Below, piece after piece: positions 10,601-40,294 of a stretch of DNA of 40,720 nt. The notes beneath the pieces are model-generated. The model was not told the origin of the DNA, ran no database searches, and saw nothing but the letters and a program-made list of their open reading frames with translations. Both the position numbers and the translations under genes were made by a program. The stretch is from a virus, in IMG/VR virus record IMGVR_UViG_3300048686_000618, positions 1-40,720 of that record; one strand, written 5' to 3'. Every line of letters begins with the position of its first letter. Position 1 is the stretch's first letter.

Positions 10601-10758
10601 CAATCACAAAATATATCATCTTAAAATCACCTAGCGTTGACACCCTAGTTTTAGAGGTCAACGCTCTTTTGCGTTTAGGTTGGCAACCGCAGGGTGGAGT
10701 TGCTAAAAATTCGGAGTTATTTGTACAAGCAATGGTTCAATATAAAGAGGTTAAATGA
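10564..10758 (+). CDS. DUF1737-like small protein with unclear start
   Basis: The recognisable part begins just after the tRNA (KYIILKSPSVDTLVLEVNAL) and continues with LLRLGWQPQGGVAKNSE and VQAMVQYKEVK. This is the DUF1737 pattern of a short beta-alpha-beta protein ending in a QAMV-like strand. The only canonical start is TTG at 10564, inside the anticodon arm of tRNA-Cys. An ATC at 10603 is the first codon after the tRNA that could yield a natural N-terminus. The tRNA may have displaced the original start. The stop overlaps the pstS ATG (ATGA). Confidence 0.6.
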   Translation: MSNRGSNPTPHSTITKYIILKSPSVDTLVLEVNALLRLGWQPQGGVAKNSELFVQAMVQYKEVK

Positions 10759-11765
10759 AACGATTACTATCACTCATCACAGGACTAGGTATCAGCTTAG
10801 CCGCAAGTGCACAAACTATTACAGGAGCAGGAGCTACATTTCCCTATCCAATATATGCAAAGTGGGCAGAAGCCTACAACAAACAAACTGGAGTACAGCT
10901 AAACTATCAAAGTATTGGTAGTAGCGGCGGTATTCGTCAGATCAATAGTAAAACAGTAGCCTTTGGTGCTACAGATGCTCCGGTTAAGGGTGAAGATTTA
11001 GATAAACTGCAGCAGGTTCAATTTCCTGCTATTATTGGCGGCACTGTACCAATTGTAAATCTTGAAGAATTTAAGCCCAATGAATTAAAGATTACAGGCC
11101 CAGTACTTGCTGAAGTGTTTATGGGAACGATAAGTAAGTGGAATGATGATCGACTTGTTAAACTTAATCCTGGAAAGACTCTACCTAACACCAACATTAC
11201 AGTTGTTCATAGGGCTGATGGAAGTGGTACTACTTTTAATTTTACTGACTATCTTGCTAGTGTCAGCCCAGATTGGGCTGCAAAGGTTGGTAGAGGAGCA
11301 GCAGTAAAGTGGCCTGCAGCCAGCAGTGTAGGTGGTAAAGGCAATGAAGGTGTAGCAGCTAATGTTGCCCGAGTAAAGGGTAGTATAGGTTATGTAGAGT
11401 ATGCCTATGTTAAAAAGAATGGTTTAACCAACCTACAACTACAAAATAAAGCAGGTAACTGGATTAGTCCAGATGATGCAAACTTTGCAGCTGCCGCAGT
11501 AGCGGCCGATTGGTTTAGTGTGCCTGGTATGGGTTTGAGCATTGTTAATCAACCACATAAGGATGCTTGGCCAATTACTACCGCAAGTTTTATAGTTATG
11601 TATAAAGATCCACAAGATAAAAAGGCTAGTCAAGAAGTCGTCAAGTTTTTTGACTGGAGCTTTAAGAATGGCAAGAAATTAAGCGAAGAACTCGACTACG
11701 TACACCTACCAGACAAACTGCAAGCTGATATTCGTAGTAAGGTATGGTCACAGATTAAACACTAG
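10755..11765 (+). CDS. pstS: PstS phosphate-binding protein
   Basis: A 336-aa periplasmic binding protein. It has a signal peptide (MKRLLSLITGLGISLAASA, cleaved after about residue 19), then TITGAGATFPYPIYAKWAE, IGSSGGIRQ, FGATDAP (about residues 71-77), VVHRADGSGTTFNFTDYL and GSIGYVEYAYVKK, all standard PstS phosphate-pocket motifs. The full family length is present. In cells PstS delivers phosphate to PstCAB in the inner membrane. No pstC, pstA or pstB is in this window, so the phage protein would work with host permease to raise phosphate supply. It resembles betaproteobacterial PstS. Confidence 0.95.
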   Translation: MKRLLSLITGLGISLAASAQTITGAGATFPYPIYAKWAEAYNKQTGVQLNYQSIGSSGGIRQINSKTVAFGATDAPVKGEDLDKLQQVQFPAIIGGTVPIVNLEEFKPNELKITGPVLAEVFMGTISKWNDDRLVKLNPGKTLPNTNITVVHRADGSGTTFNFTDYLASVSPDWAAKVGRGAAVKWPAASSVGGKGNEGVAANVARVKGSIGYVEYAYVKKNGLTNLQLQNKAGNWISPDDANFAAAAVAADWFSVPGMGLSIVNQPHKDAWPITTASFIVMYKDPQDKKASQEVVKFFDWSFKNGKKLSEELDYVHLPDKLQADIRSKVWSQIKH

Positions 11766-12309: not shown

Positions 12310-12338
12310 TTGACGGGTTGATTGATTGTCTGTATAAT
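12310..12338 (+). promoter_or_regulatory. Second tandem promoter for the HTH gene
   Basis: TTGACG at 12310-12315, 17-bp spacer, TATAAT at 12333-12338, about 40 bases before the ATG at 12378. The segment is a diverged copy of the first promoter (both have AAATATTCA upstream and TATTATTGATT downstream), so it arose by duplication. Confidence 0.82.
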
Positions 12339-12377
12339 CATATTATTGATTCGCAAACAACCCACAAAGGAAAACAA

Positions 12378-12683
12378 ATGGAAACTAAAGCACAAAACTA
12401 CACCCCCGAGCAAGTCCAGTTGATTGTTGAGCAGTACAAAAGTGGTACTCCTGTTGAGCAGATTGCCCAAGCCCTGGGCAAGAGCACCCGCAGTATCGTT
12501 GCCAAACTTAGCCGTGAAGGTGTTTATGTGGCTAAGACTAAAGTTGCTCAGCCTCGCGTTCGTAAGAGCGATCTTGTTGAGCGTATTGCAGCTGCAGTTG
12601 GTGTTCCTAGCGAGCTGTTTGAAAGCCTGGAAAAAGCCAATCACGAAGTTCTTGAGCAGCTTGCACAGAAACTTGGTGTGTAG
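12378..12683 (+). CDS. HTH-type DNA-binding protein (paralog 1 of 4)
   Basis: A 101-aa protein. Residues about 8-50 form a helix-turn-helix-like segment (YTPEQVQLIVEQYKSGTPVE, then QIAQALGKSTRSIVAKLSRE and VYVAK). The C-terminal half is helical and ends in a segment with SLEKANHEVLEQL. Three clear paralogs lie at 28936, 30426 (-) and 34004 (-). The function is unproven; the HTH suggests a transcription regulator or DNA organiser. The start is fixed by AAAGGAAAA seven bases upstream. Two strong promoters and a clean terminator make it a highly expressed single-gene unit. Confidence 0.75.
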   Translation: METKAQNYTPEQVQLIVEQYKSGTPVEQIAQALGKSTRSIVAKLSREGVYVAKTKVAQPRVRKSDLVERIAAAVGVPSELFESLEKANHEVLEQLAQKLGV

Positions 12684-21821: not shown

Positions 21822-22016
21822 ATGTCAATGATGACACTAGAAGTTGAGGTTGGCAGAGGTCTAGTAGAACTAACTGGCAGTAACTGTAAATATTGGCAGG
21901 GCTGTGGACTGCCAGACTATGAAGGCCCAATTGCTGGGCTACCACCAGAGGTAATCAAAACACTACTTGAGCTAGGGGCAATCAAAAATATTCACTTGAA
22001 CAAAGAGCTTCCTTAG
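21822..22016 (+). CDS. Small hypothetical protein, 64 aa
   Basis: ATG 21822 is preceded by GGGGAG at good spacing. Product MSMMTLEVEVGRGLVELTGS, then CKYWQGCGLPDYEGPIAGLP; the last 20 codons include the -35 region of the next promoter. Function unknown. Confidence 0.62.
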   Translation: MSMMTLEVEVGRGLVELTGSNCKYWQGCGLPDYEGPIAGLPPEVIKTLLELGAIKNIHLNKELP

Positions 22017-22024
22017 TGTATAAT
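21996..22024 (+). promoter_or_regulatory. Promoter of giant RNA D
   Basis: TTGAAC at 21996-22001, 17-bp spacer, TATAAT at 22019-22024. The -35 lies inside the preceding coding sequence and the -10 just after its stop. Confidence 0.85.
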
Positions 22025-22030
22025 ATTTAT

Positions 22031-23181
22031 ATAAATTGAGAGTTTAGGGCGAACCAGGGCCAACATTAATCTGTTGGATAAGTTCTTAATCTGTGTTGAA
22101 ACTACCCTTAACACAGACCCAACCAACCTATTTGTATAACTACGGAAACACACAGACCCTATGCTGTGCCGTGGTTATACAAATGTGTTGATGCCCAGTT
22201 AGCTAGTAGTAACTCCTAGAGTACAAAGACTAGCTGGCCTATATTACGCATTGTTGGAAAGGGCAACCAATGTAAAAAATGCCACAACGGTGTTGAAATC
22301 TGTGGCTGGCAAGTAGGCCCATAAAGCTGAAAAGACGCGGAACGGATACACATGGTGGAAGCTGCTAACCACCCTAAAGGAACCAGCCCCCTAGTTTGTT
22401 AACAGTTATAGGGGTTAACCAAAAGACCTGTTACCGTAGCATATACGTAGTTATGCGTTATCTAACACGAGAGTTAGAAACCAGTGGAGCCGATTCTGTT
22501 GCAAAACATGGCGGCCAACCACTACACCGTCCCTGAGCTATTCCTCTTGCCAACTAAGATTGGACAATGAACTCAGGGTTATATGCCACAAGCCGTAGTT
22601 AACTGGAGCTGTGGGGTAGATAGTCGTTAACAGTGCCAGTAGCTCAAACGTGCTCAGAGCAAAGGTGTGCTAGAAATAAGCCCTCTAGCCTGGCAAATAG
22701 TTCAAACACAGTGCAGAGTGAACATTAGCCTACAGCTAGCTGCCAGCAACTAAAAACAGTGCGTTGCTAAGGTTTGAAGCCGACCCAATCTAGCGATTTA
22801 GGGTCGGGGTTTAGCAGTAACCGAAAACTGCTTGTGCCCAACTGGGCCAGTGCGCCAACAATAAATGGCAAGGCTATAACCACAGTGCCTGGTTAGTCGC
22901 GTTCTTATAATTGTTAATAGCCAGCAACGTCTGGTAATCTAGGTGCAAATCCTAGACGCGCTAGTTGCCCATATCTTGGCTGGAACCCAAGACCGAACAG
23001 CAACTAAGAATCACAAGATTCGGGACATCAACTGCACCGACTTACGCCAATTCGCAATCGGCTAGAGTGTAGACAAAAGATGCTGGTGGTCGTAGTAGCA
23101 CTACATAAAAGTAATCCACTTCCTAAATCGTCGACGTGCTAAAGCCCGCCTGCTCTGAAGCAGAGCGGGCTTTAGTTTTTT
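22031..23181 (+). ncRNA. Giant structured non-coding RNA D, about 1150 nt
   Basis: The stretch has a consensus promoter, a strong terminator and no protein-like frame. Clear helices: 22131-22145 with 22169-22183 (15 bp), GCCACA/TGTGGC, TCTAAC/GTTAGA, CCGACCC/GGGTCGG (22780-22807), AGCAGT/ACTGCT, and GAATC/GATTC near 23009-23022. A three-way junction at 22894-22963 carries a T-loop-like hairpin TCTAGG-TGCAAAT-CCTAGA. The size and complexity are in the range of GOLLD, ROOL and OLE, and phage location near tRNA genes is typical of the first two. Identity cannot be settled by eye. Confidence 0.8.
23139..23181 (+). terminator. Terminator of giant RNA D
   Basis: CTAAAGCCCGC (23139-23149) pairs perfectly with GCGGGCTTTAG (23165-23175), followed by a run of T. 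Confidence 0.92.
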
Positions 23182-23205
23182 ATATTTTTAGTTTAGAGGA
23201 ACTCT

Positions 23206-28935: not shown

Positions 28936-29247
28936 ATGAAATATACTAAAGAACTTACGGACAAAATAGTAAACGACTACCAAGCCAATATTGCTGTTAG
29001 CAAAATTGCCGAGGAGCTTAGGGTGCCAGAGCGCAGCATAGTTGCCAAGCTGAGTAGCATGGGCATCTACCAAAAGCAACGCTACCTCAATAAGCGCGGT
29101 GAGGTGCCGCGTAAAAAGTTTGAGATGATTGAAAGCTTAGCCACACTCTTAGGGGTGCCTAGCGATCAGCTAGAAAGTTTAGAAAAAGTCAACAAAAATG
29201 TACTTAAATTGCTTGAAACCAGGTTGAGTGACCCTAAACCGCAATAA
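28936..29247 (+). CDS. HTH-type DNA-binding protein (paralog 2 of 4)
   Basis: A 103-aa relative of the protein at 12378: KELTDKIVNDYQANIAVSKI, then AEELRVPERSIVAKLSSMGI and VPSDQLESLEKVNKNVLKLL. The recognition helix differs (VPERSI versus GKSTRSI), so its target site probably differs. A TTTAGGGTCG box overlaps the region just upstream (28917-28926) and another lies in its 3' end (29229-29238), which suggests self-regulation. It ends at a strong terminator. Confidence 0.75.
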   Translation: MKYTKELTDKIVNDYQANIAVSKIAEELRVPERSIVAKLSSMGIYQKQRYLNKRGEVPRKKFEMIESLATLLGVPSDQLESLEKVNKNVLKLLETRLSDPKPQ

Positions 29248-29260
29248 TTACACTTAATCA

Positions 29261-29288
29261 GCCCAGCTTTATGCTGGGTTTTTTATTG
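29261..29288 (+). terminator. Rho-independent terminator after HTH paralog 2
   Basis: GCCCAGC pairs with GCTGGG around a short T-rich loop, followed by TTTTTT. Confidence 0.88.
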
Positions 29289-29333
29289 CCCACACTATTG
29301 GGTTTGCTCTGATTTAGGGTCAGAAAAATTCTC

Positions 29334-29363
29334 TTGACAGGGTAGTTGATCAGCCACTATAAT
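29334..29363 (+). promoter_or_regulatory. Promoter with TTTAGGGTCA box, module 1
   Basis: TTGACA at 29334-29339, 18-bp spacer, TATAAT at 29358-29363, then TTGGCGC. A TTTAGGGTCA box begins 21 bp upstream of the -35. No gene follows; the transcript (about 29370 on) would be a short RNA containing GCAAG/CTTGC and CTAAA/TTTAG hairpins. Confidence 0.75.
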
Positions 29364-29517
29364 ATTGGCGCAAGAGCACTAAATTTTTTAGCTTGATTGC
29401 TTGCCCACTGGCGCAACACCACAATTTCTGACCCTAAACTGTACTAGTTTGGGTGCCGGCCAAGAAATTTTGTGCTGTTGGTGTGGTTTGCTGCGGTTTA
29501 GGGTCAAAAAAATTTAC

Positions 29518-29547
29518 TTGACGGTGATGTTGATTTGCCGCTATAAT
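29518..29547 (+). promoter_or_regulatory. Promoter with TTTAGGGTCA box, module 2
   Basis: TTGACG at 29518-29523, 18-bp spacer, TATAAT at 29542-29547, then TTGGCGC. Same design as module 1, with the TTTAGGGTCA box again 21 bp before the -35. Confidence 0.75.
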
Positions 29548-29754
29548 GTTGGCGCAAGACCAATAAATTTTTGCACTTGATAGTGTTTGCACTGGCGCAG
29601 AATAACCACTAAATATTTTGGGGAGTTTTTCCACTGGCGCCGGTGGGTGCACCCACCATCATCATTTATAGAATTTATAGCGACATCGTGCTAGGTTATA
29701 TAATTTAGTGCGGTACGGTTATGGATTATATAATTTGTAGCGGCTTAGGGTCAA

Positions 29755-29828
29755 CCGACCAGCGGTCGATACGGGCCGACCAGCGGCGGCATTTTCGCTT
29801 GACACGCGGGCCAAAATTATAGTATAAT
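29755..29828 (+). promoter_or_regulatory. Composite promoter element, copy 1
   Basis: CCGACCAGCGGT at 29755-29766 and CCGACCAGCGGC at 29776-29787 (21 bp apart), TTGACA at 29799-29804, 18-bp spacer, TATAAT at 29823-29828 inside a palindrome with arms CCAAAATTATA and TATAATTTTGG. Confidence 0.82.
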
Positions 29829-29902
29829 TTTGGCGCAATATCGCTACAAATTTTATAACAGTATAATAACCATAACTTGACCCAATTACACCCAAAACCG
29901 GC

Positions 29903-29976
29903 CTGACCAGCGGCAGCCAGCGGCAGATGAGTGGCAGCAAAAACGCTTGACACGCGTGCAATTTTAATGATAAAAT
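29903..29976 (+). promoter_or_regulatory. Composite promoter element, copy 2
   Basis: CTGACCAGCGGC at 29903-29914, a degenerate second box at 29924-29935, TTGACA at 29947-29952, 18-bp spacer, TAAAAT at 29971-29976, then TTGGCGCC. Arms CAATTTTA and TAAAATTG flank the -10. Confidence 0.72.
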
Positions 29977-30027
29977 TGGCGCCAGGTCGCTATAAATTAT
30001 ATAATTTATAACCGTTATGGCGAAAAT

Positions 30028-30055
30028 AACGGCCCGCTTTGGGCCGTTATGGTTT
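30028..30055. terminator. Bidirectional terminator
   Basis: AACGGCCC pairs with GGGCCGTT around GCTTT. The plus strand is followed by GGTTTTT, the minus strand by ATTTTCG. It ends the leftward 30063 gene and the rightward copy-2 promoter RNA. Confidence 0.8.
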
Positions 30056-30062
30056 TTAGAAC

Positions 30063-30371
30063 CTAGTCAACTAGGTCATACTCAACAAGTGCATCCACAA
30101 TGTGGACGGGCAACTTTACAGTTTCCATATCACCCCAGCGCTTGAGTGCGACAAGCTCACCGACCTTACGGTCAAATTTATCGTGACTGGCACACCAAGC
30201 AAAGCTCACGTTATAAAATTTAGTATTATCACGGCCGATGGTAGGTTCACAAACCATGGTCATGCCAGGAAAAAGAGTATTAGTCGGTTTTTTAGAATGA
30301 ACAAAACCGCCCATGTCACGCAGGACGCCTTTAAGCTCTTTACGCAGGTTTTTTTCTTGAGGGGTAAGCAT
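30063..30371 (-). CDS. Hypothetical protein, 102 aa
   Basis: Leftward gene downstream of HTH paralog 3. The product (MLTPQEKNLRKELKGVLRDM...) has a basic helical start and a beta-rich centre with MTMVCEPTIGRDNTKFYNVS. No family recognised. Separated from the HTH gene by a GGGGC-TTCG-GCCCC hairpin that could attenuate its expression. Confidence 0.65.
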   Translation of the reverse strand: MLTPQEKNLRKELKGVLRDMGGFVHSKKPTNTLFPGMTMVCEPTIGRDNTKFYNVSFAWCASHDKFDRKVGELVALKRWGDMETVKLPVHIVDALVEYDLVD

Positions 30372-30405
30372 GGTATAACTCCTAGAGTGTTAAAGATTTT
30401 ATAGC

Positions 30406-30419
30406 GGGGCCGAAGCCCC
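30406..30419 (-). promoter_or_regulatory. UUCG-type hairpin between HTH paralog 3 and next gene
   Basis: On the minus strand GGGGC and GCCCC close a TTCG tetraloop, followed by an A/T-rich but not T-only tract. A comparable hairpin lies at 33981-34000 after paralog 4, so it looks like a conserved attenuation or stability element. Confidence 0.6.
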
Positions 30420-30425
30420 TAAGAT

Positions 30426-30752
30426 TTATAACGGCTTGCTGTTAGCAAGTGCGTCGAAAATCGCCTTGAGAGCGGATTTGTTCGCCTTGGTAAGCGATTC
30501 AATGTCATTTTCTGACAGGCGAAGAATCGCGCCGATAGCATCGGCCGTTACATCTTTTTTAACAGGCTTTTCGCCAGTTTTCGAGACGTACTGCTTTGCA
30601 ACGTAAACTTTCTCGCGCGAAAGTTTCGCTACAACAGAACGAACGGTTTTACCCATAGCCGAAGCAATTGCTTCGACCGCGACACCTGCCTGATAATCTG
30701 CTATAATTTTAGCAGTCTGCTCGGCGGTGTAATTAACGGCTTTTTCTGCCAT
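30426..30752 (-). CDS. HTH-type DNA-binding protein (paralog 3 of 4)
   Basis: A 108-aa protein closest to paralog 4 at 34004: YTAEQTAKIIADYQAGVAVE, then AIASAMGKTVRSVVAKLSRE and VYVAKQY, and a C-terminal SENDIESLTKANKSALKAIF. First gene of its leftward unit and expressed from the palindrome-type promoter at 30810-30858. Being the first gene it may control its own promoter and others. Confidence 0.78.
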   Translation of the reverse strand: MAEKAVNYTAEQTAKIIADYQAGVAVEAIASAMGKTVRSVVAKLSREKVYVAKQYVSKTGEKPVKKDVTADAIGAILRLSENDIESLTKANKSALKAIFDALANSKPL

Positions 30753-30809
30753 GATTACAACTCCTAGAACTGTCTTGGGCTTGACCCTATGTCTCCCGCA
30801 ACAAAATCA

Positions 30810-30858
30810 ATTATACACGGGTTTCAGTGGCCAATTGTCGTCCAGATGACAATTGGCC
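30810..30858 (-). promoter_or_regulatory. Leftward palindrome-type promoter for HTH paralog 3
   Basis: The minus-strand -10 is TATAAT (30815-30810). At the -35 position, after a 17-bp spacer, is ACAATT, the arm of a palindrome GGCCAATTGTC/GACAATTGGCC (30829-30858). The lack of TTGACA and the palindrome position suggest an activator-dependent promoter. Confidence 0.7.
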
Positions 30859-30892
30859 TACCATCTGTCAGGTGGATCAGCGGCAAAATCAC

Positions 30893-30967
30893 CCGACCAG
30901 CGGCAGACAGCATCCGACGAACGGTAGCCCCTGGGGCTTGACACGCGCAACAAAATTATGATATAAT
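30893..30967 (+). promoter_or_regulatory. Composite promoter element, copy 3
   Basis: CCGACCAGCGGC at 30893-30904, CCGACGAACGGT at 30914-30925 (21 bp apart), TTGACA at 30938-30943, 18-bp spacer, TATAAT at 30962-30967 inside a perfect 30-bp A/T palindrome (30952-30981), then GGCGCC. Confidence 0.82.
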
Positions 30968-31029
30968 TATATCATAATTTTGGCGCCATCGCTATAAATT
31001 CTATAATTGGTAGCGATATAGTAAAAAAT

Positions 31030-32463: not shown

Positions 32464-32537
32464 CCGACCAGCGGTTGCTACCAGCCGACGAACGGTCGCT
32501 CCAGGCCTTGACACGGGCAAAAATTATATGATATAAT
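32464..32537 (+). promoter_or_regulatory. Composite promoter element, copy 4
   Basis: CCGACCAGCGGT at 32464-32475, CCGACGAACGGT at 32485-32496 (21 bp apart), TTGACA at 32508-32513, 18-bp spacer, TATAAT at 32532-32537 in a palindrome with arms AAAAATTATAT and ATATAATTTTT, then GGCGCC. Confidence 0.82.
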
Positions 32538-32546
32538 TTTTGGCGC

Positions 32547-32579
32547 CACCGATATAAATTTTATATCGGTGTGGTTTTT
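32547..32579 (+). terminator. Promoter-proximal terminator of copy 4
   Basis: CACCGATATA pairs with TATATCGGTG, followed by TGGTTTTT. It lies only a few bases after the expected transcription start, so the RNA would be about 35 nt. Confidence 0.7.
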
Positions 32580-32593
32580 ATAACGTGGAACAG

Positions 32594-32609
32594 TGTTCCA
32601 CGTGGAACC
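32594..32609. other. parS-like site 2
   Basis: TGTTCCACGTGGAACC matches known bacterial centromere sites bound by ParB. An overlapping 21-bp inverted repeat with arms ACGTGGAACA and TGTTCCACGT (32583-32603) extends it. The 3' edge overlaps the stop codon of the leftward 32609 gene. Confidence 0.72.
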
Positions 32610-32965
32610 TATGCGTGCGTGGTTTCCCAAGCGGCAAGCGCACGCTTTGCCAACATTTGATAGAACGTAGCAGATTTTAGATCGCCGCGCTCTATGTCTG
32701 CGCTAGCCCAACTTGCAAAACGCTCTGCATCGTTCAACAATTGACGACGATTTAACTCGCGCCAAAAAATAGAACGTTCGTCTTCGACAGGGCTAAGGTC
32801 AAACTCAGCAGGCAGGCTATGAAACTCAGTTAGTAAATCGTTATACATTCTAGTAACCCAACCTAGATCGTTCCAATCGCTAACCGTTCCAAAATCTGGA
32901 TCAAAACCGTACATTTCGTTATAAAGTTCAACCAGTTTATCTTGCATAACCATTAAATTTTCCAT
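32609..32965 (-). CDS. Hypothetical protein, 118 aa
   Basis: The start at 32965 has an AAGGAC site on the minus strand and follows the HAD gene. An acidic helical protein (MENLMVMQDKLVELYNEMYG, later FWRELNRRQLLNDAERFASW and MLAKRALAAWE). No family recognised. Its stop overlaps the parS-like site. Confidence 0.68.
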   Translation of the reverse strand: MENLMVMQDKLVELYNEMYGFDPDFGTVSDWNDLGWVTRMYNDLLTEFHSLPAEFDLSPVEDERSIFWRELNRRQLLNDAERFASWASADIERGDLKSATFYQMLAKRALAAWETTHA

Positions 32966-32966
32966 A

Positions 32967-33443
32967 TCAATGTCCTTGTTTGCTTGGAATGTAAACACCA
33001 CGAATGTTAAAGTAATCGCATACCGCTTTAAGATATGCAACATTATCTTCATAAAATACAGCGTCATTAAAATGATAACCTAAATCGCTATACAATTTGA
33101 AAATCCGTTTTAGCCCTTCGATTTTGAGAGTACCGCCAGAACGGTTATCATTTTCATTACGGCTAACGATATGATCGGGAGTTCCTAGTCTGCTATAAAT
33201 AAATGCACGATCAGGGTTCCGCAAAATACGGGCAGTAGCAATAACGACAATACAGTTGGGATCATCGAGATCGTTTTTATATTGTTCTGCCAATGGTAAC
33301 AAATTGTCATCAAGTGCCCGATACTCGTTAGCACGCCAGTAATCGAGATCAATGCGCTCAATACCGTTATCAACAATGGTACGATACCTATGCATTGAGC
33401 AAACAATTGTGCCGTCCATGTCATAGATTGCTATCCTTTTCAT
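32967..33443 (-). CDS. HAD-superfamily phosphatase
   Basis: A 158-aa protein with HAD motif I as IYDMDGTIVCSMHR (about residues 5-18, DxD nucleophile), motif II around VVIATAR (about 66-72), a Lys in IEGLKRIFKLY and motif IV in VFYEDNVAYLKAV (about 129-141). It resembles small nucleotidases and the phosphatase half of polynucleotide-kinase-type repair enzymes. The likely job is hydrolysis of a nucleotide or nucleic-acid-end phosphate. The start MKRIAIYD is chosen for its AAAGGA site. Confidence 0.8.
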   Translation of the reverse strand: MKRIAIYDMDGTIVCSMHRYRTIVDNGIERIDLDYWRANEYRALDDNLLPLAEQYKNDLDDPNCIVVIATARILRNPDRAFIYSRLGTPDHIVSRNENDNRSGGTLKIEGLKRIFKLYSDLGYHFNDAVFYEDNVAYLKAVCDYFNIRGVYIPSKQGH

Positions 33444-33473
33444 AACCATGTCCTTTGCATTAACCATGTGCTA

Positions 33474-33555: not shown

Positions 33556-33629
33556 CCGACCAACGGCAGTCTACGCCCGACAAACGGCGGTGGCAGGGCT
33601 TGACACGGCTGCAAATTATATGCTATAAT
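33556..33629 (+). promoter_or_regulatory. Composite promoter element, copy 5
   Basis: CCGACCAACGGC at 33556-33567, CCGACAAACGGC at 33577-33588 (21 bp apart), TTGACA at 33600-33605, 18-bp spacer, TATAAT at 33624-33629 with arms CAAATTATA and TATAATTTG, then GGCGCC. Confidence 0.82.
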
Positions 33630-33639
33630 TTGGCGCCAT

Positions 33640-33669
33640 CGCTATAAAAGTTATAGCGGTATATTTTTT
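33640..33669 (+). terminator. Promoter-proximal terminator of copy 5
   Basis: CGCTATAA pairs with TTATAGCG around AAG, followed by TTTTTT. The resulting RNA would be only about 35 nt. Confidence 0.72.
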
Positions 33670-33675
33670 GTATGA

Positions 33676-33701
33676 GCTACTGTTTCACGTGAAACAGTAG
33701 C
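33676..33701. other. parS-like site 1, perfect
   Basis: The core TGTTTCACGTGAAACA (33681-33696) is the textbook bacterial parS sequence, and the palindrome continues perfectly to 26 bp. It lies in a non-coding gap just after the copy-5 terminator. There is no T-run on either strand directly adjoining it, so it is not simply a terminator. Confidence 0.82.
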
Positions 33702-33758: not shown

Positions 33759-33971
33759 TCATTCTTGCATCGATCCAGTAAGTGTATTGTAATGCTTATT
33801 ATAGCTAGGCCCAGTGAGCTTGCGCCCAAGGATTCTATTTTTTATAAGCCACATAAAACCCTTGTAGTCGGTAGGCACAATAAAAAACTGTAACGGTTCT
33901 TCAACGGCAATCTCAGCACGACGGCTAAATGCTATAATCTTTGGATCAGTGGCAAGTGCTACATTTTTCAT
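33759..33971 (-). CDS. Small basic hypothetical protein, 70 aa
   Basis: Follows HTH paralog 4. The product (MKNVALATDPKIIAFSRRAE...) contains FFIVPTDYKGFMWLIKNRIL and ends basic. Soluble. No family recognised. Preceded by the 33981-34000 hairpin. Confidence 0.6.
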   Translation of the reverse strand: MKNVALATDPKIIAFSRRAEIAVEEPLQFFIVPTDYKGFMWLIKNRILGRKLTGPSYNKHYNTLTGSMQE

Positions 33972-34003: not shown

Positions 34004-34330
34004 CTAGTTGGCAGAGTTACGGATAAAAGCCTCAATTGCACGCAGTGCGCTCTTGTTAGCTTTCGTTAACGATTCTATATCGTTCTCTGAGAGCTTGAGA
34101 GCAGCACCGATGAAATCAGCCGTTACATCTTTTTTAACGGGAGTCTCGCCCGTTTTGGTTTTATATTCTTTAGCGATATAAACCTTTTCACGGCTGAGCT
34201 TCGCTACAATTGAGCGAACAGTCCTGCCCATAGTCTGGGCAATCTGCTCGACCGTAACACCGGCTTGGTATTGTTCCACAATCTGAGCGGTCTGCTCAGG
34301 GCTATAATTAGGGGCTTTGGCTGTTGCCAT
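34004..34330 (-). CDS. HTH-type DNA-binding protein (paralog 4 of 4)
   Basis: A 108-aa protein very similar to paralog 3: YSPEQTAQIVEQYQAGVTVE, then QIAQTMGRTVRSIVAKLSRE and VYIAKEY, and the shared C-terminus SENDIESLTKANKSALRAI. The start at 34330 is set by AGGAG eight bases upstream. It has a palindrome-type promoter like paralog 3, so the two genes may have duplicated with their control regions. Confidence 0.78.
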   Translation of the reverse strand: MATAKAPNYSPEQTAQIVEQYQAGVTVEQIAQTMGRTVRSIVAKLSREKVYIAKEYKTKTGETPVKKDVTADFIGAALKLSENDIESLTKANKSALRAIEAFIRNSAN

Positions 34331-34363
34331 TTCAGCTACTCCTGTTGTGTTGAAAGAAACTCT

Positions 34364-34407
34364 AGTATAGGCCAATTTTAGCGAAAGATTGTCGTCCTAG
34401 CGACAAT
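34364..34407 (-). promoter_or_regulatory. Leftward palindrome-type promoter for HTH paralog 4
   Basis: The minus -10 is TATACT (34369-34364), spacer 17 bp. The -35 position ACAATC is an arm of the palindrome ATTGTCG-N6-CGACAAT (34388-34407). Confidence 0.72.
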
Positions 34408-36599: not shown

Positions 36600-36877
36600 A
36601 TGGAACACCTACCCGCAGAAACCCTACAAATTAAATATACCACAGGACCCTAAACATGAGCAAATTTAACACAGTTTGGTTGTACAGTGGCGGTGGTAGC
36701 CTTGGTGAGGCATGCACAGTTATAAATCCTGTATTAGTTGATAGCCCGCTAAATGGTACCGTATATGAAATACAAGGGCAAACTTATCATAAATATATCA
36801 TGGTAATAAACGGTATAGAACAACAAGTATTAGTGAGACCAGACAATGGAATACCTACCAGCCGAAACCCTACAAAT
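36600..36877 (+). repeat. Direct repeat pair flanking the 36656 gene
   Basis: 36600-36631 and 36846-36877 match at 28 of 32 positions; both start ATGGA and encode ME(H/Y)LPAETLQI. Three of the four changes are at codon third positions; the fourth (H/Y) changes an amino acid. The second copy is the start of the terminase small subunit; the first opens a 17-codon ORF (36600-36653) that then stops. It looks like a duplicated terS start left by insertion of the intervening gene. Confidence 0.7.
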
Positions 36878-36904
36878 CAGCCCAGAAGCACTAGAGGTCG
36901 CTAA
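36656..36904 (+). CDS. Small hypothetical protein, 82 aa
   Basis: Product MSKFNTVWLYSGGGSLGEAC..., with YEIQGQTYHKYIMVINGIEQ, predicted beta-rich. It overlaps the terminase small subunit by 59 bases and lies between the direct repeats, so it may be an inserted or accessory gene. Confidence 0.55.
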   Translation: MSKFNTVWLYSGGGSLGEACTVINPVLVDSPLNGTVYEIQGQTYHKYIMVINGIEQQVLVRPDNGIPTSRNPTNQPRSTRGR

Positions 36905-37307
36905 TAGCTACCTTACTACAAACAGTGCACAGCTTGTTGCAGAGGAACTAGGCGTACCACTTGACAGGGTATGTGAAATTTTAGCTAGACCAGAAGTACG
37001 TGGATATATAGACCGTGTGTTTTTTGATACGGGATATAACAACAGGTTTCTTATGCGACGTGCCATGGACGCCGTTATCAAGCGCAAGTTTGAGGAGTTA
37101 GAGGAAGCAGGGGTTGGTAGTGGAAAAGATATTGCAGACCTCCTACACCTCAGCCATAAAATGAGCATGGACCTTCTAGATCGCGAAATACAGTTGCAAA
37201 AGCTGCGCACTGAGTCGGCACCTAGCAAGCAGGTAAACGTGCAGATAAATGATGACGGCACTAAATATTCGCAGCTAATACACAAATTAATTAGTGGAGA
37301 CGTTTAG
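36846..37307 (+). CDS. terS: Terminase small subunit
   Basis: A 153-aa protein before the large subunit. The N-terminal part contains an HTH-like region (LVAEELGVPLDRVCEILARP, about residues 31-50) for DNA recognition; central helices for oligomerisation include MRRAMDAVIKRKFEELEEAG; the C-terminus is linker-like (APSKQVNVQINDDGTKYSQ). The small subunit marks phage DNA for packaging. The stop overlaps the large subunit's GTG start. Assignment rests on pattern and position. Confidence 0.78.
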   Translation: MEYLPAETLQISPEALEVANSYLTTNSAQLVAEELGVPLDRVCEILARPEVRGYIDRVFFDTGYNNRFLMRRAMDAVIKRKFEELEEAGVGSGKDIADLLHLSHKMSMDLLDREIQLQKLRTESAPSKQVNVQINDDGTKYSQLIHKLISGDV

Positions 37308-38599
37308 TGTTAGTAGTAAGCAGGCCCGATATTGATTGCGAAACAATTACAGATTATCCAGCCACAACAAGATTTATAAAACTGCCTATTGACAATTACT
37401 TAAGGTTAATGGGCATGTACGACACCATCAACAGACCCCAAATCGCACTAATCAATAGTGTTAATAGCCCGCAATATCGTTTTATTTGCGCTGCACTTGC
37501 ACGCAGACTAGGCAAAACCTACATAGCCAACATTATAGGCCAACTGGTTACACTAGTACCACAGTGTAATGTGCTGATTATATCGCCTAACTATAACCTC
37601 AGCAGTATTAGTTTTGAGCTGCAGCGGCGTTTGATCAAGCATTTTGACCTGGAAGTTACCCGTGATAATCTTAAGGATAAAGTTATTGAACTAGGCAATG
37701 GGTCAACTATTAGAATGGGTTCAATTAGCACAGTTGACAGCACAGTAGGTCGTAGCTATGATTTGATAATATTTGACGAAGCTGCACTCAGTGAACACGG
37801 TGAGCGTGCTTTTAATGTGGCACTGCGCCCTACACTAGACAAGCCTAATAGTAAAGCTATTTTTATTAGTACACCGCGTGGGCGTCAAAATTGGTTTAGT
37901 CAGTTTTATAATCGTGGCTTTGATCCACAATTTTCGGAGTGGATTAGCATACAGGCGGATTATACAGAGAATACGCGCATGAGTGCCAGTGATGTAGCCG
38001 AAGCACGTCGGTCAATGCCCAAAAGTGAGTTTGAGCAAGAGTACATGGCCAGCTTTACCAGCTATTTAGGTCAAATCTATGAGGGTTTCTTGCCGGAATA
38101 CGTATTAGACGAACTACCACCTACAGTACGCGGTGAGGCTTTTGCTGGCTGTGATCCAGGTTATCGTGACGCCACAGCATTTGTTGTAGTAGTTTATGAT
38201 CCAGCAACAGAGTACTACTGGGTTGTGGAGGACTACTGTGAAGCAGAGCGTAGTACGGCACAGCACAGTGAACATTTTCACAGGATAATTGATAAACACA
38301 ATCCAGAGGTAATTTTTATAGACAGTGCTGCTGCACAGTTTAGTAGTGATCTTGCTTATACCTACGACATTTCAACTACCAAAGCTAAAAAAGATGTACT
38401 ACCTGGTATTGCCTATCTACAAACAATTATACAGCAAGGTAGATTGCGTGTTCTTAAGCACTGCGAACATGTGCTAGCTATGTTAGATCAGTATCGCTGG
38501 GACGATCGTGAAGGTTTAATGCGTGAGAGGCCTAAGCATGATCGGCATAGTCATATAGCAGATGCATTACGGTATGCTATATACAGCTATGTGGTATAA
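37307..38599 (+). CDS. terL: Terminase large subunit
   Basis: A 430-aa packaging ATPase-nuclease. The ATPase shows a Walker A-like ARRLGKTYIANI (about residues 65-76), Walker B LIIFDEAALSEHGE (about 152-165) and a coupling motif STPRGRQNW (about 187-195). The nuclease half has GCDPGYRDATAF (about 281-292), FIDSAAAQF (about 342-350) and HSHIADALRYAIYSY near the C-terminus (His/Asp metal residues). It drives DNA into the prohead using ATP. GTG start at 37307 overlapping the terS stop. Confidence 0.93.
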   Translation: MLVVSRPDIDCETITDYPATTRFIKLPIDNYLRLMGMYDTINRPQIALINSVNSPQYRFICAALARRLGKTYIANIIGQLVTLVPQCNVLIISPNYNLSSISFELQRRLIKHFDLEVTRDNLKDKVIELGNGSTIRMGSISTVDSTVGRSYDLIIFDEAALSEHGERAFNVALRPTLDKPNSKAIFISTPRGRQNWFSQFYNRGFDPQFSEWISIQADYTENTRMSASDVAEARRSMPKSEFEQEYMASFTSYLGQIYEGFLPEYVLDELPPTVRGEAFAGCDPGYRDATAFVVVVYDPATEYYWVVEDYCEAERSTAQHSEHFHRIIDKHNPEVIFIDSAAAQFSSDLAYTYDISTTKAKKDVLPGIAYLQTIIQQGRLRVLKHCEHVLAMLDQYRWDDREGLMRERPKHDRHSHIADALRYAIYSYVV

Positions 38600-38609
38600 A
38601 AAAGTGGTA

Positions 38610-38637
38610 TTGACTTTTATTGTGCTTTTGGTATACA
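38610..38637 (+). promoter_or_regulatory. Promoter ahead of the HNH-like gene
   Basis: TTGACT at 38610-38615, 16-bp spacer, TATACA at 38632-38637, 30 bases before the ATG. Confidence 0.6.
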
Positions 38638-38667
38638 ATAGCTAAAATATGATAATAGTAAAATTTT

Positions 38668-39132
38668 ATGGCCATAAATACTAATAAAAGAATCGCCGTT
38701 AAGTGGATTAGAGACAAGGCTAAAAGCGCCTACGAAAAACAATCACATTGCTATATATGTAACAGTACTGAGGAGTTAGAATTACATCATCTACACAGTA
38801 TTACCCATCTCTTAGAAATTTGGGCAAAACAGCGTGGCTATGATGTTAGTACTGATAGTGGCATACTTAGTGTTCGTGACGAGTTTATTAGTGATCACCG
38901 TGAACAGATATATGATTTAGTTTATACCCTGTGTAATCGCCATCATGTACAACTGCACGGAATTTATGGTAAGAGTCCTTTACCTAATTCGGTCGCTAAG
39001 CAACAGCACTGGATACAAGTACAGCAGGAAAAACATAAGAGTGGTTTGAGCGGTTATCGTGGTAGCACGCCTCAGTTTGGTTCGTTTAGCGAATTTACAG
39101 GAGGCAGCGGTGGCATTAGAAAGACTTCGTAG
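38668..39132 (+). CDS. HNH-type endonuclease-like protein near terminase
   Basis: A 154-aa protein. It has CYICNSTEELELHHLHSI (about residues 27-44, zinc Cys pair and the HH of the catalytic segment) and LCNRHHVQLHG (about 91-101), the HNH core seen in phage packaging-associated nucleases. In several HK97-type phages an HNH protein next to terminase helps generate packaging ends. The spacer between the two motifs is longer than usual (about 45 residues). The portal ribosome site and start lie inside its 3' end. Confidence 0.75.
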   Translation: MAINTNKRIAVKWIRDKAKSAYEKQSHCYICNSTEELELHHLHSITHLLEIWAKQRGYDVSTDSGILSVRDEFISDHREQIYDLVYTLCNRHHVQLHGIYGKSPLPNSVAKQQHWIQVQQEKHKSGLSGYRGSTPQFGSFSEFTGGSGGIRKTS

Positions 39133-40294
39133 CTGGATTGTTGAAAAATTAAATCCAGCACAGCCAATAATAGCAAGTGATGAAGGCAGCAGTGTTCAAA
39201 GTTCACAGCGCATTACAAGCTATAGAAACGCTTTTCGTAATATCGACAGCGTAAACAGAGCAGTTAATATGGTAGTTAGTGCATGTAGTTCACTAGACTA
39301 CGATATTAAAGATAAAGTACACGATGGTGTGGTTAATGGCATACGTCAAAAGACCTTAAACACACTACTCAACTTTCGTCCAAATCCCTATCAAAGCGCA
39401 CAAGAATTTAGACGTGAGCTGTTTAAGGACTTGCTCCTAGACGGAAATGCATTCGTACACTTTGATGGTACGTTTATGTACCACCTGCCAGCAGAAAATG
39501 TTGAAATACTAACAGACCCTAGAACTTTTATACGCGGCTATAAGTATAATGCTGGCGTAACTTTTCCCGAGCAAGATGTGTTTTACTTTAAGGATATTAA
39601 CAGTAACAGCATCTATCGTGGATCTAGCAGACTTGAGGCGTGCTTAGATAATATTGATATACTCTACAGCATGCAGGAGTTTCAGCAAAAGTTTTTTGAA
39701 AATGGCACAATTTTTGGCCTGGTGCTTACTAGTGAAAATACACTAAGTCCACAGGCTAAAGAGAAAACCCTAGCCTACTGGCAGCAGCGCTATAATGCTA
39801 AAAATGGTGGGCGTAGACCAATTATACTTGATAGCGGCTTAAAGCCCTACAAACTACAAGATCAAAAGTTTAGTGACCTAGACTTTGACGTGGCAATTAA
39901 AACACACACTGAGCGTATAATGACAGCCATAGGCGTTCCGCCTATATTGTTAATGGGAGGTAACAATGCTAACATTGCCCCTAATTTACGCTTATTTTAC
40001 ATGGAAACAGTATTGCCAATCGTTAAGCTCTATGTTTCCAGCTTGGAGCGATATTTTGGATATGACGTGGAAGCAATAACAAGCAGTGTTAGCGCACTAC
40101 AGCCAGAATTAAAAGATATAGCAAGTTATCACGCTAGTTTAGTAAATGGTGGAATTATTACACCAAATGAAGCTAGACAAGAATTACGGTATCCTAAACT
40201 TGATGGTCAGGATACAATAAGAATACCTGCTAATATAGCAGGTTCAGCAGCCAATCCATCCTTGGGTGGTAGGCCTAGTACGACGAGGGAGTAA
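39110..40294 (+). CDS. HK97-family portal protein
   Basis: A 394-aa protein of the HK97 portal type. The start at GTG 39110 has AGGAG upstream; earlier in-frame codons belong to the HNH gene. Features include SQRITSYRNAFRNIDSVNRA near the N-terminus, RPNPYQSAQEFRRELFKDLL with LLDGNAFVH (about residues 85-115), MQEFQQKFFENGTIFGLVLT (about 187-206) and TERIMTAIGVPPILLMGGNN (about 267-286). The portal dodecamer is the DNA channel at the capsid vertex and the terminase docking point. Confidence 0.92.
   Translation: MALERLRSWIVEKLNPAQPIIASDEGSSVQSSQRITSYRNAFRNIDSVNRAVNMVVSACSSLDYDIKDKVHDGVVNGIRQKTLNTLLNFRPNPYQSAQEFRRELFKDLLLDGNAFVHFDGTFMYHLPAENVEILTDPRTFIRGYKYNAGVTFPEQDVFYFKDINSNSIYRGSSRLEACLDNIDILYSMQEFQQKFFENGTIFGLVLTSENTLSPQAKEKTLAYWQQRYNAKNGGRRPIILDSGLKPYKLQDQKFSDLDFDVAIKTHTERIMTAIGVPPILLMGGNNANIAPNLRLFYMETVLPIVKLYVSSLERYFGYDVEAITSSVSALQPELKDIASYHASLVNGGIITPNEARQELRYPKLDGQDTIRIPANIAGSAANPSLGGRPSTTRE

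Follow-up and report, generated by a model that had tools for sequence, protein, structure and literature searches.

A fragment of a T5-like phage genome carries two copies of the bacterial centromere site parS. The stretch of DNA analyzed, here called the window, is 40,720 nt long (IMG/VR record IMGVR_UViG_3300048686_000618, positions 1 to 40,720). These orphan sites very probably load ParB of the host, a conclusion reached in the absence of binding data and drawn from sequence identity with bacterial parS, identical permitted variation and conservation among related phages. The main role inferred for them, that of a borrowed centromere, is possible rather than probable. The best explanation of the whole, in which the orphan pair loads the chromosomal ParB of the host and serves as a borrowed centromere, is held with a confidence that stops a little short of even.

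The first site, parS1, was the subject of the original prediction, and its match to the parS consensus is exact (TGTTTCACGTGAAACA, residing at 33681–33696, with 0 mismatches; core kept in relatives). The 14-bp core (33682–33695) lies at the centre of a 26-bp perfect palindrome (33676–33701), and the site is non-coding, as predicted, being placed between two minus-strand genes, one from the ORF list (33759–33971) and the other the dmp-like gene (32967–33467). The 26-bp palindrome is present but does not stand as a conserved unit, since its outer arms are replaced in many relatives and only the inner 14 bp stay; the extension was consequently rejected as an essential element. A second site, parS2 (32583–32608), had been missed. 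It consists of a half site, ACGTGGAAC (32583–32591), and a full core, GTTCCACGTGGAAC (32595–32608), lies 1.09 kb from parS1 and directly adjoins the stop codon of a minus-strand ORF (32609–33067) that has no Pfam or PHROG match and whose true start is probably near 32964. The site is found at the same place in relatives, and three of them (L133, L142 and L157) have two full tandem cores there, 17 bp apart. The window has two copies of GTTYCACGTGRAAC, where a first-order Markov model of its sequence predicts about 0.00025; for exact 16-mers the prediction is about 1e-5. Chance occurrence is ruled out by the former expectation together with the counts of control palindromes in relatives and in IMG/VR. 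No DnaA boxes were found in the parS island; the T5 injection-stop region appears, by eye only, to have DnaA-box-like sequences.

Judged by its genes, the window represents part of a T5-like phage genome, with a terminase, a portal and a dmp-like gene of the T5 type all present. A T5-like packaging cluster lies beside the parS island on the plus strand (36846–40294) and comprises the terminase small subunit, TerL (37307–38599), an HNH gene (38668–39132) and the portal. TerL displays 49% identity to T5-like Vibrio phages, and the portal 40% identity to T5-like Salmonella phages. The two parS sites flank the dmp-like gene (minus strand, 32967–33467; PHROG 415, E 1e-10), which belongs to the HAD-type deoxynucleoside monophosphatase/polynucleotide kinase family, and the terminase adjoins. 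The dmp-like protein is 29% identical to T5 dmp over 85 aa, and the tblastn matches of the gene include the dmp genes of Salmonella and Escherichia T5-like phages. T5 dmp is a gene of the first-step-transfer DNA (T5 annotation, AY543070). The minus-strand gene at 34004–34375 encodes a D5-like HTH DNA-binding protein (PHROG 323, 'transcriptional regulator, D5-like', E 3e-11). The window has four small HTH proteins that resemble one another (12318–12683, 28936–29247, 30426–30752 and 34004–34375), and the one tested is D5-like.

The clade apparently comprises uncultured, lytic T5-like freshwater phages, and no cultured member of it was found. As read from its translations, one relative has a DNA polymerase, a primase and a helicase of its own, as well as SbcCD-like genes, and no integrase or repressor was noticed, although no systematic search was made. 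In a different part of the window, about 1.2 kb (21950–23190) lack a convincing ORF, with a strong terminator-like hairpin at the end. This region shows 82–96% identity, in pieces, in five relatives, and its portion from 22050 to 23000 folds better than shuffles (z −4.4). It has no Rfam match at the gathering threshold, and is a candidate for a large structured non-coding RNA.

The loci of relatives were gathered with the dmp-like protein and with TerL, and then scanned for the core. With up to two mismatches to TGTTYCACGTGRAACA, 89 sites were found in 1.06 Mb of relatives, versus 9 for one control palindrome and 0 for each of three others. The exact IUPAC core is found in 19 of the relatives' 50 records, and the reversed control in one record. 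Promoter-associated sites with up to three mismatches allowed yielded 67 distinct 44-mers. Conservation of the core, on which the earlier reading depended in part, is borne out by these sequences: 52 of them have no mismatch to GTTYCACGTGRAAC, and the flanks have diverged. Two more have one mismatch (L125 and L157, loci that also hold intact cores), four are CATGTG variants from sister lineages, and nine are at three mismatches, eight of these being a tandem half site, as in the window. The information content of the core columns is 1.3–2.0 bits, with about 1.0–1.1 for the Y/R pair, and that of the flanking columns is mostly 0.1–0.6. The 67-row set includes near-copies, so that the independence of its rows is overstated. 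By these comparisons, the parS core is kept by selection beyond its surroundings.

A TerL tree of 33 rows places the window in an 11-member clade (support 100/99), and parS is present in 11 of the 11. The sister pair of this clade consists of one phage with parS and one with CATGTG, and L186 has parS separately from the clade. Seventeen rows labelled 'none' have no parS though the homologous region is present. Most parS-bearing relatives hold two to four cores, usually within about 1–2.5 kb. In the sister lineages L181, L182 and L208, GTTTCATGTGAAAC occupies the place of parS behind the promoter-like modules described below, in constant orientation. This sequence is one base off the palindrome, and its affinity for ParB is unknown. 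The possibility that it is a Burkholderiales parS is unsupported there, because only six of 60 genomes have it, mostly as single copies.

The claim that no parA or parB gene is in the window held up, inasmuch as searches there for a ParB HTH and for a ParA (AAA_31) domain were negative. With positive controls that were detected, ParB_N (PF02195) had no match in 50 relatives' records, ParA AAA_31 (PF13614) was without a match in 11 records, the window among them, and HTH_ParB (PF17762) in 10 records at E up to 10. Extending the search for parAB beyond the window likewise gave nothing in relatives that cover about 100 kb of a genome. In a comparison over 11.5 kb, contigs of 82 and 78 kb proved identical; the parS pair is located at 28 kb in one and, reversed, at 74–76 kb in the other. 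Jointly, they span about 104 kb of one phage type, an estimate for which closure was not shown and from which a few kb may be unseen. A phage-borne ParABS of the P1/N15 type was rejected on the lack of PF02195, PF17762 or PF13614 matches in genomes that are fragments, together about 100 kb. The domain searches could miss very divergent proteins. The absence of ParA and ParB genes suggests that the host segregation machinery is borrowed during infection.

The hosts are probably freshwater Comamonadaceae bacteria. This inference is based on the matches of a phage-borne phosphate-binding protein, PstS (10755–11765), which are mostly from Comamonadaceae/Burkholderiales at 68–75% identity; it relies on a single auxiliary gene that is transferable. 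All 17 genomes examined near the PstS matches contain three to four parS each, with the same core and in one contig region each. The phage core agrees with parS at each of the 12 fixed positions, and the two Y/R positions where it varies are also those that vary in the parS of these 17 genomes of the likely host family.

The possession of parS as a general T5 feature was discarded, as GTTYCACGTGRAAC is absent from 16 phage isolates with related TerL, T5 included. Fifteen of these isolates are T5-like (T5 and phages of Escherichia, Salmonella, Klebsiella, Proteus, Enterobacter, Aeromonas and Vibrio), and the sixteenth, Rhizobium phage RHEph10, has a TerL that matches only distantly. The sole site with one mismatch among the 16 is GTTCCACGAGGAAC in AP014889, a Vibrio phage. 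Vibrio hosts have ParABS, yet the Vibrio phages are without parS, and a ParABS-containing host alone does not, therefore, bring parS. The exact 16-mer was found in at least 120 stretches of IMG/VR, versus one for one control palindrome of the same composition with a central CpG. It is held by the viral contigs L002–L121, with up to five copies in L017 and L044. For ten parS-bearing IMG/VR contigs, the longest ORF near the site was compared with PHROG families, and nine match one, four of them being portal or terminase. Some of the parS-bearing contigs may be fragments or host DNA. In 46 of 50 other parS-bearing viral contigs, chosen for length, no ParB_N match was found, and it is on this lack of a ParB domain that the reading of orphan parS as what would be a wider phage strategy rests.

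The phage sites have the same 14-bp core as the parS of bacterial chromosomal ParABS systems, the same variable positions and a similar organization as a small cluster of sites. They differ from chromosomal parS in being found on a lytic phage, without detected ParA or ParB, and behind promoter-like/hairpin modules. The closest precedent is the hijacking of a plasmid ParABS by SGI1, in which two parS-like sites bind the ParB of IncC plasmids, stabilise SGI1 and destabilise the plasmid (PMC10954446). SGI1 resembles the phage in being a mobile element with parS mimics of another replicon, whose ParAB it uses, and the phage, as far as its predicted proteins tell, similarly carries foreign parS without ParAB of its own. 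By contrast, SGI1 is an integrative mobilizable element that exploits the system of a plasmid, as has been tested, whereas here a lytic phage would exploit that of the host chromosome, which is only inferred. Extrachromosomal mycobacteriophage prophages, which are temperate, carry whole parABS systems (PMC7157519). Like the window, P1, N15 and the mycobacteriophage plasmid-prophages have a partition site on the phage genome, but they are temperate and encode their own partition proteins, none of which was found in the T5-like contigs searched. The terminal-repeat/first-step-transfer region of T5, with its injection stop signal (AY543070), resembles the window in its dmp-like gene and in the repeats and palindromes of its non-coding DNA; unlike the window, T5 and the 15 other isolates have no parS. 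A search confined to the open-access literature turned up nothing on chromosomal, host-type parS in lytic phages.

In the proposed mechanism, the 14-bp core would be the nucleation site for host chromosomal ParB with CTP, which would then form a closed clamp and slide to neighbouring phage DNA. The parS cluster is presumed to sit in a pre-early-like genome end, proximal to dmp and the terminase, where ParB, and via it ParA and SMC, may tether the incoming phage DNA to the nucleoid, position it there or condense it. The presence of two to four sites clustered at one place of the genome, like the host's own, fits a borrowed centromere. Against the explanation stand the lack of binding or infection data and the fact that partition serves no obvious purpose in lytic phages. 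Should the genome end fall between dmp and the terminase, by analogy with T5, parS would belong to the DNA that is injected first. A more elaborate version, which we regard as rather improbable, holds that parS in the first-injected end loads host ParB-CTP within minutes of entry, that ParB, ParA and SMC anchor, condense or help pull in the DNA in a manner coupled to the promoter-hairpin modules, and that the lineage parasitises the host segregation machinery, with orphan parS as a wider strategy.

A pure centromere leaves unexplained the promoter-like/hairpin module found just upstream of all but one copy of parS; the copying of one module could explain it. Upstream of parS1, on the plus strand (33600–33637), a promoter-like TTGACA-N18-TATAAT (33600–33629; 12/12 consensus) with an AT-rich dyad over its −10 region is followed by GGCGCC (33632–33637). 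Between these elements and parS1 lies a hairpin, ATCGCTATAAAAGTTATAGCGGT (33638–33660, plus strand), the stem of which varies among relatives with the pairing kept. The same elements precede parS2 on the plus strand (32508–32547), with TTGACA-N18-TATAAT at 32508–32537, GGCGCC at 32542–32547 and the hairpin CACCGATATAAATTTTATATCGGTG at 32547–32571. Direct repeats of the CCGACNAACGG type are located upstream of module 1 (33556–33597, plus strand), with equivalents at 32464–32505 upstream of module 2. Five more plus-strand promoter-like modules, without parS, lie at 29334, 29518, 29799, 29947 and 30938 (29334–31007). The region 29250–29800 contains repeats of the form CACTGGCGCA and TTGAC..TATAATGTTGGCGC, and is in character like the repeat-rich injection-stop region of T5. 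Taking the window and its relatives together, 88 of 89 cores, in a count whose pattern includes GTTTCATGTGAAAC, have a promoter-like TTGAC...TATAAT-like site and then GGCGC within 140 bp on one side, and lie about 30–72 bp downstream of the GGCGC. The sequence of the hairpin between GGCGC and parS differs between lineages; across 65 distinct modules, the mean folding z is −3.5, with 95% below −2 (simple shuffles). Because the T5 major nick occurs at GCGC beside a hairpin, GGCGC is suggested by analogy as a possible T5-type nick motif, which is untested.

This arrangement raises the alternative of a roadblock or insulator, in which host ParB at parS, some 30–70 bp past a strong, promoter-like site bearing a 5' hairpin, would block or limit plus-strand transcription that enters convergent minus-strand genes from their 3' side, or would silence the dmp-like and D5-like genes by spreading. 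The fixed position behind the promoter-like modules and the 12/12 scores of the promoter-like sites speak for it, as does Pseudomonas aeruginosa, where ParB at the intergenic parS3 and parS4 represses the adjoining promoters (PMC5521831). However, the window modules read into minus-strand genes from the 3' side and so drive no sense ORF, and there are no transcription data. In addition, most other modules of the same island and of sister lineages are without parS, which implies that parS is not essential to the module. We consider this alternative rather unlikely.

A decoy function, for which we see a slimmer chance, would have replicated phage copies of parS titrate ParB from the host origin region, stalling segregation and the cell cycle of the host. 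With two to four sites per phage genome, against three to four in the host, tens of phage copies would outnumber the host sites, and the parS-like sites of SGI1 do destabilise the helper plasmid (PMC10954446). Nevertheless, no larger parS arrays are present in this clade, and T5-like phages already destroy host DNA early (T5 A1 and dmp annotation), which makes a benefit from titration doubtful.

It is very unlikely that the core is instead the operator of a phage protein, such as one of the D5-like HTH type, with a likeness to parS that arose by convergence. The window does encode four D5-like HTH paralogues, and modules bear other palindromes over the −10 region, which would allow for it. The agreement with parS at 12 of 12 fixed positions, together with variation confined to the two positions that vary in host parS, speaks against it, and the modules of sister phages do without the parS core. 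The 46 of 50 unrelated parS-bearing viral contigs without ParB_N also fit host ParB as the common ligand. A non-functional palindrome or bidirectional terminator, to which the self-complementarity and intergenic position of the site would be suited, is a negligible prospect given the conservation of the core against diverged flanks, and an intrinsic terminator was rejected since neither strand shows a T-run and the palindrome is absent from the output of the terminator scan.

ParB and parS are familiar as a device for segregating chromosomes and plasmids. If true, the maintenance of parS under selection in a lytic lineage without detectable ParA or ParB would represent a new viral capture of host chromosome organization, and the finding prompts one to ask how widespread orphan parS sites are in phages.
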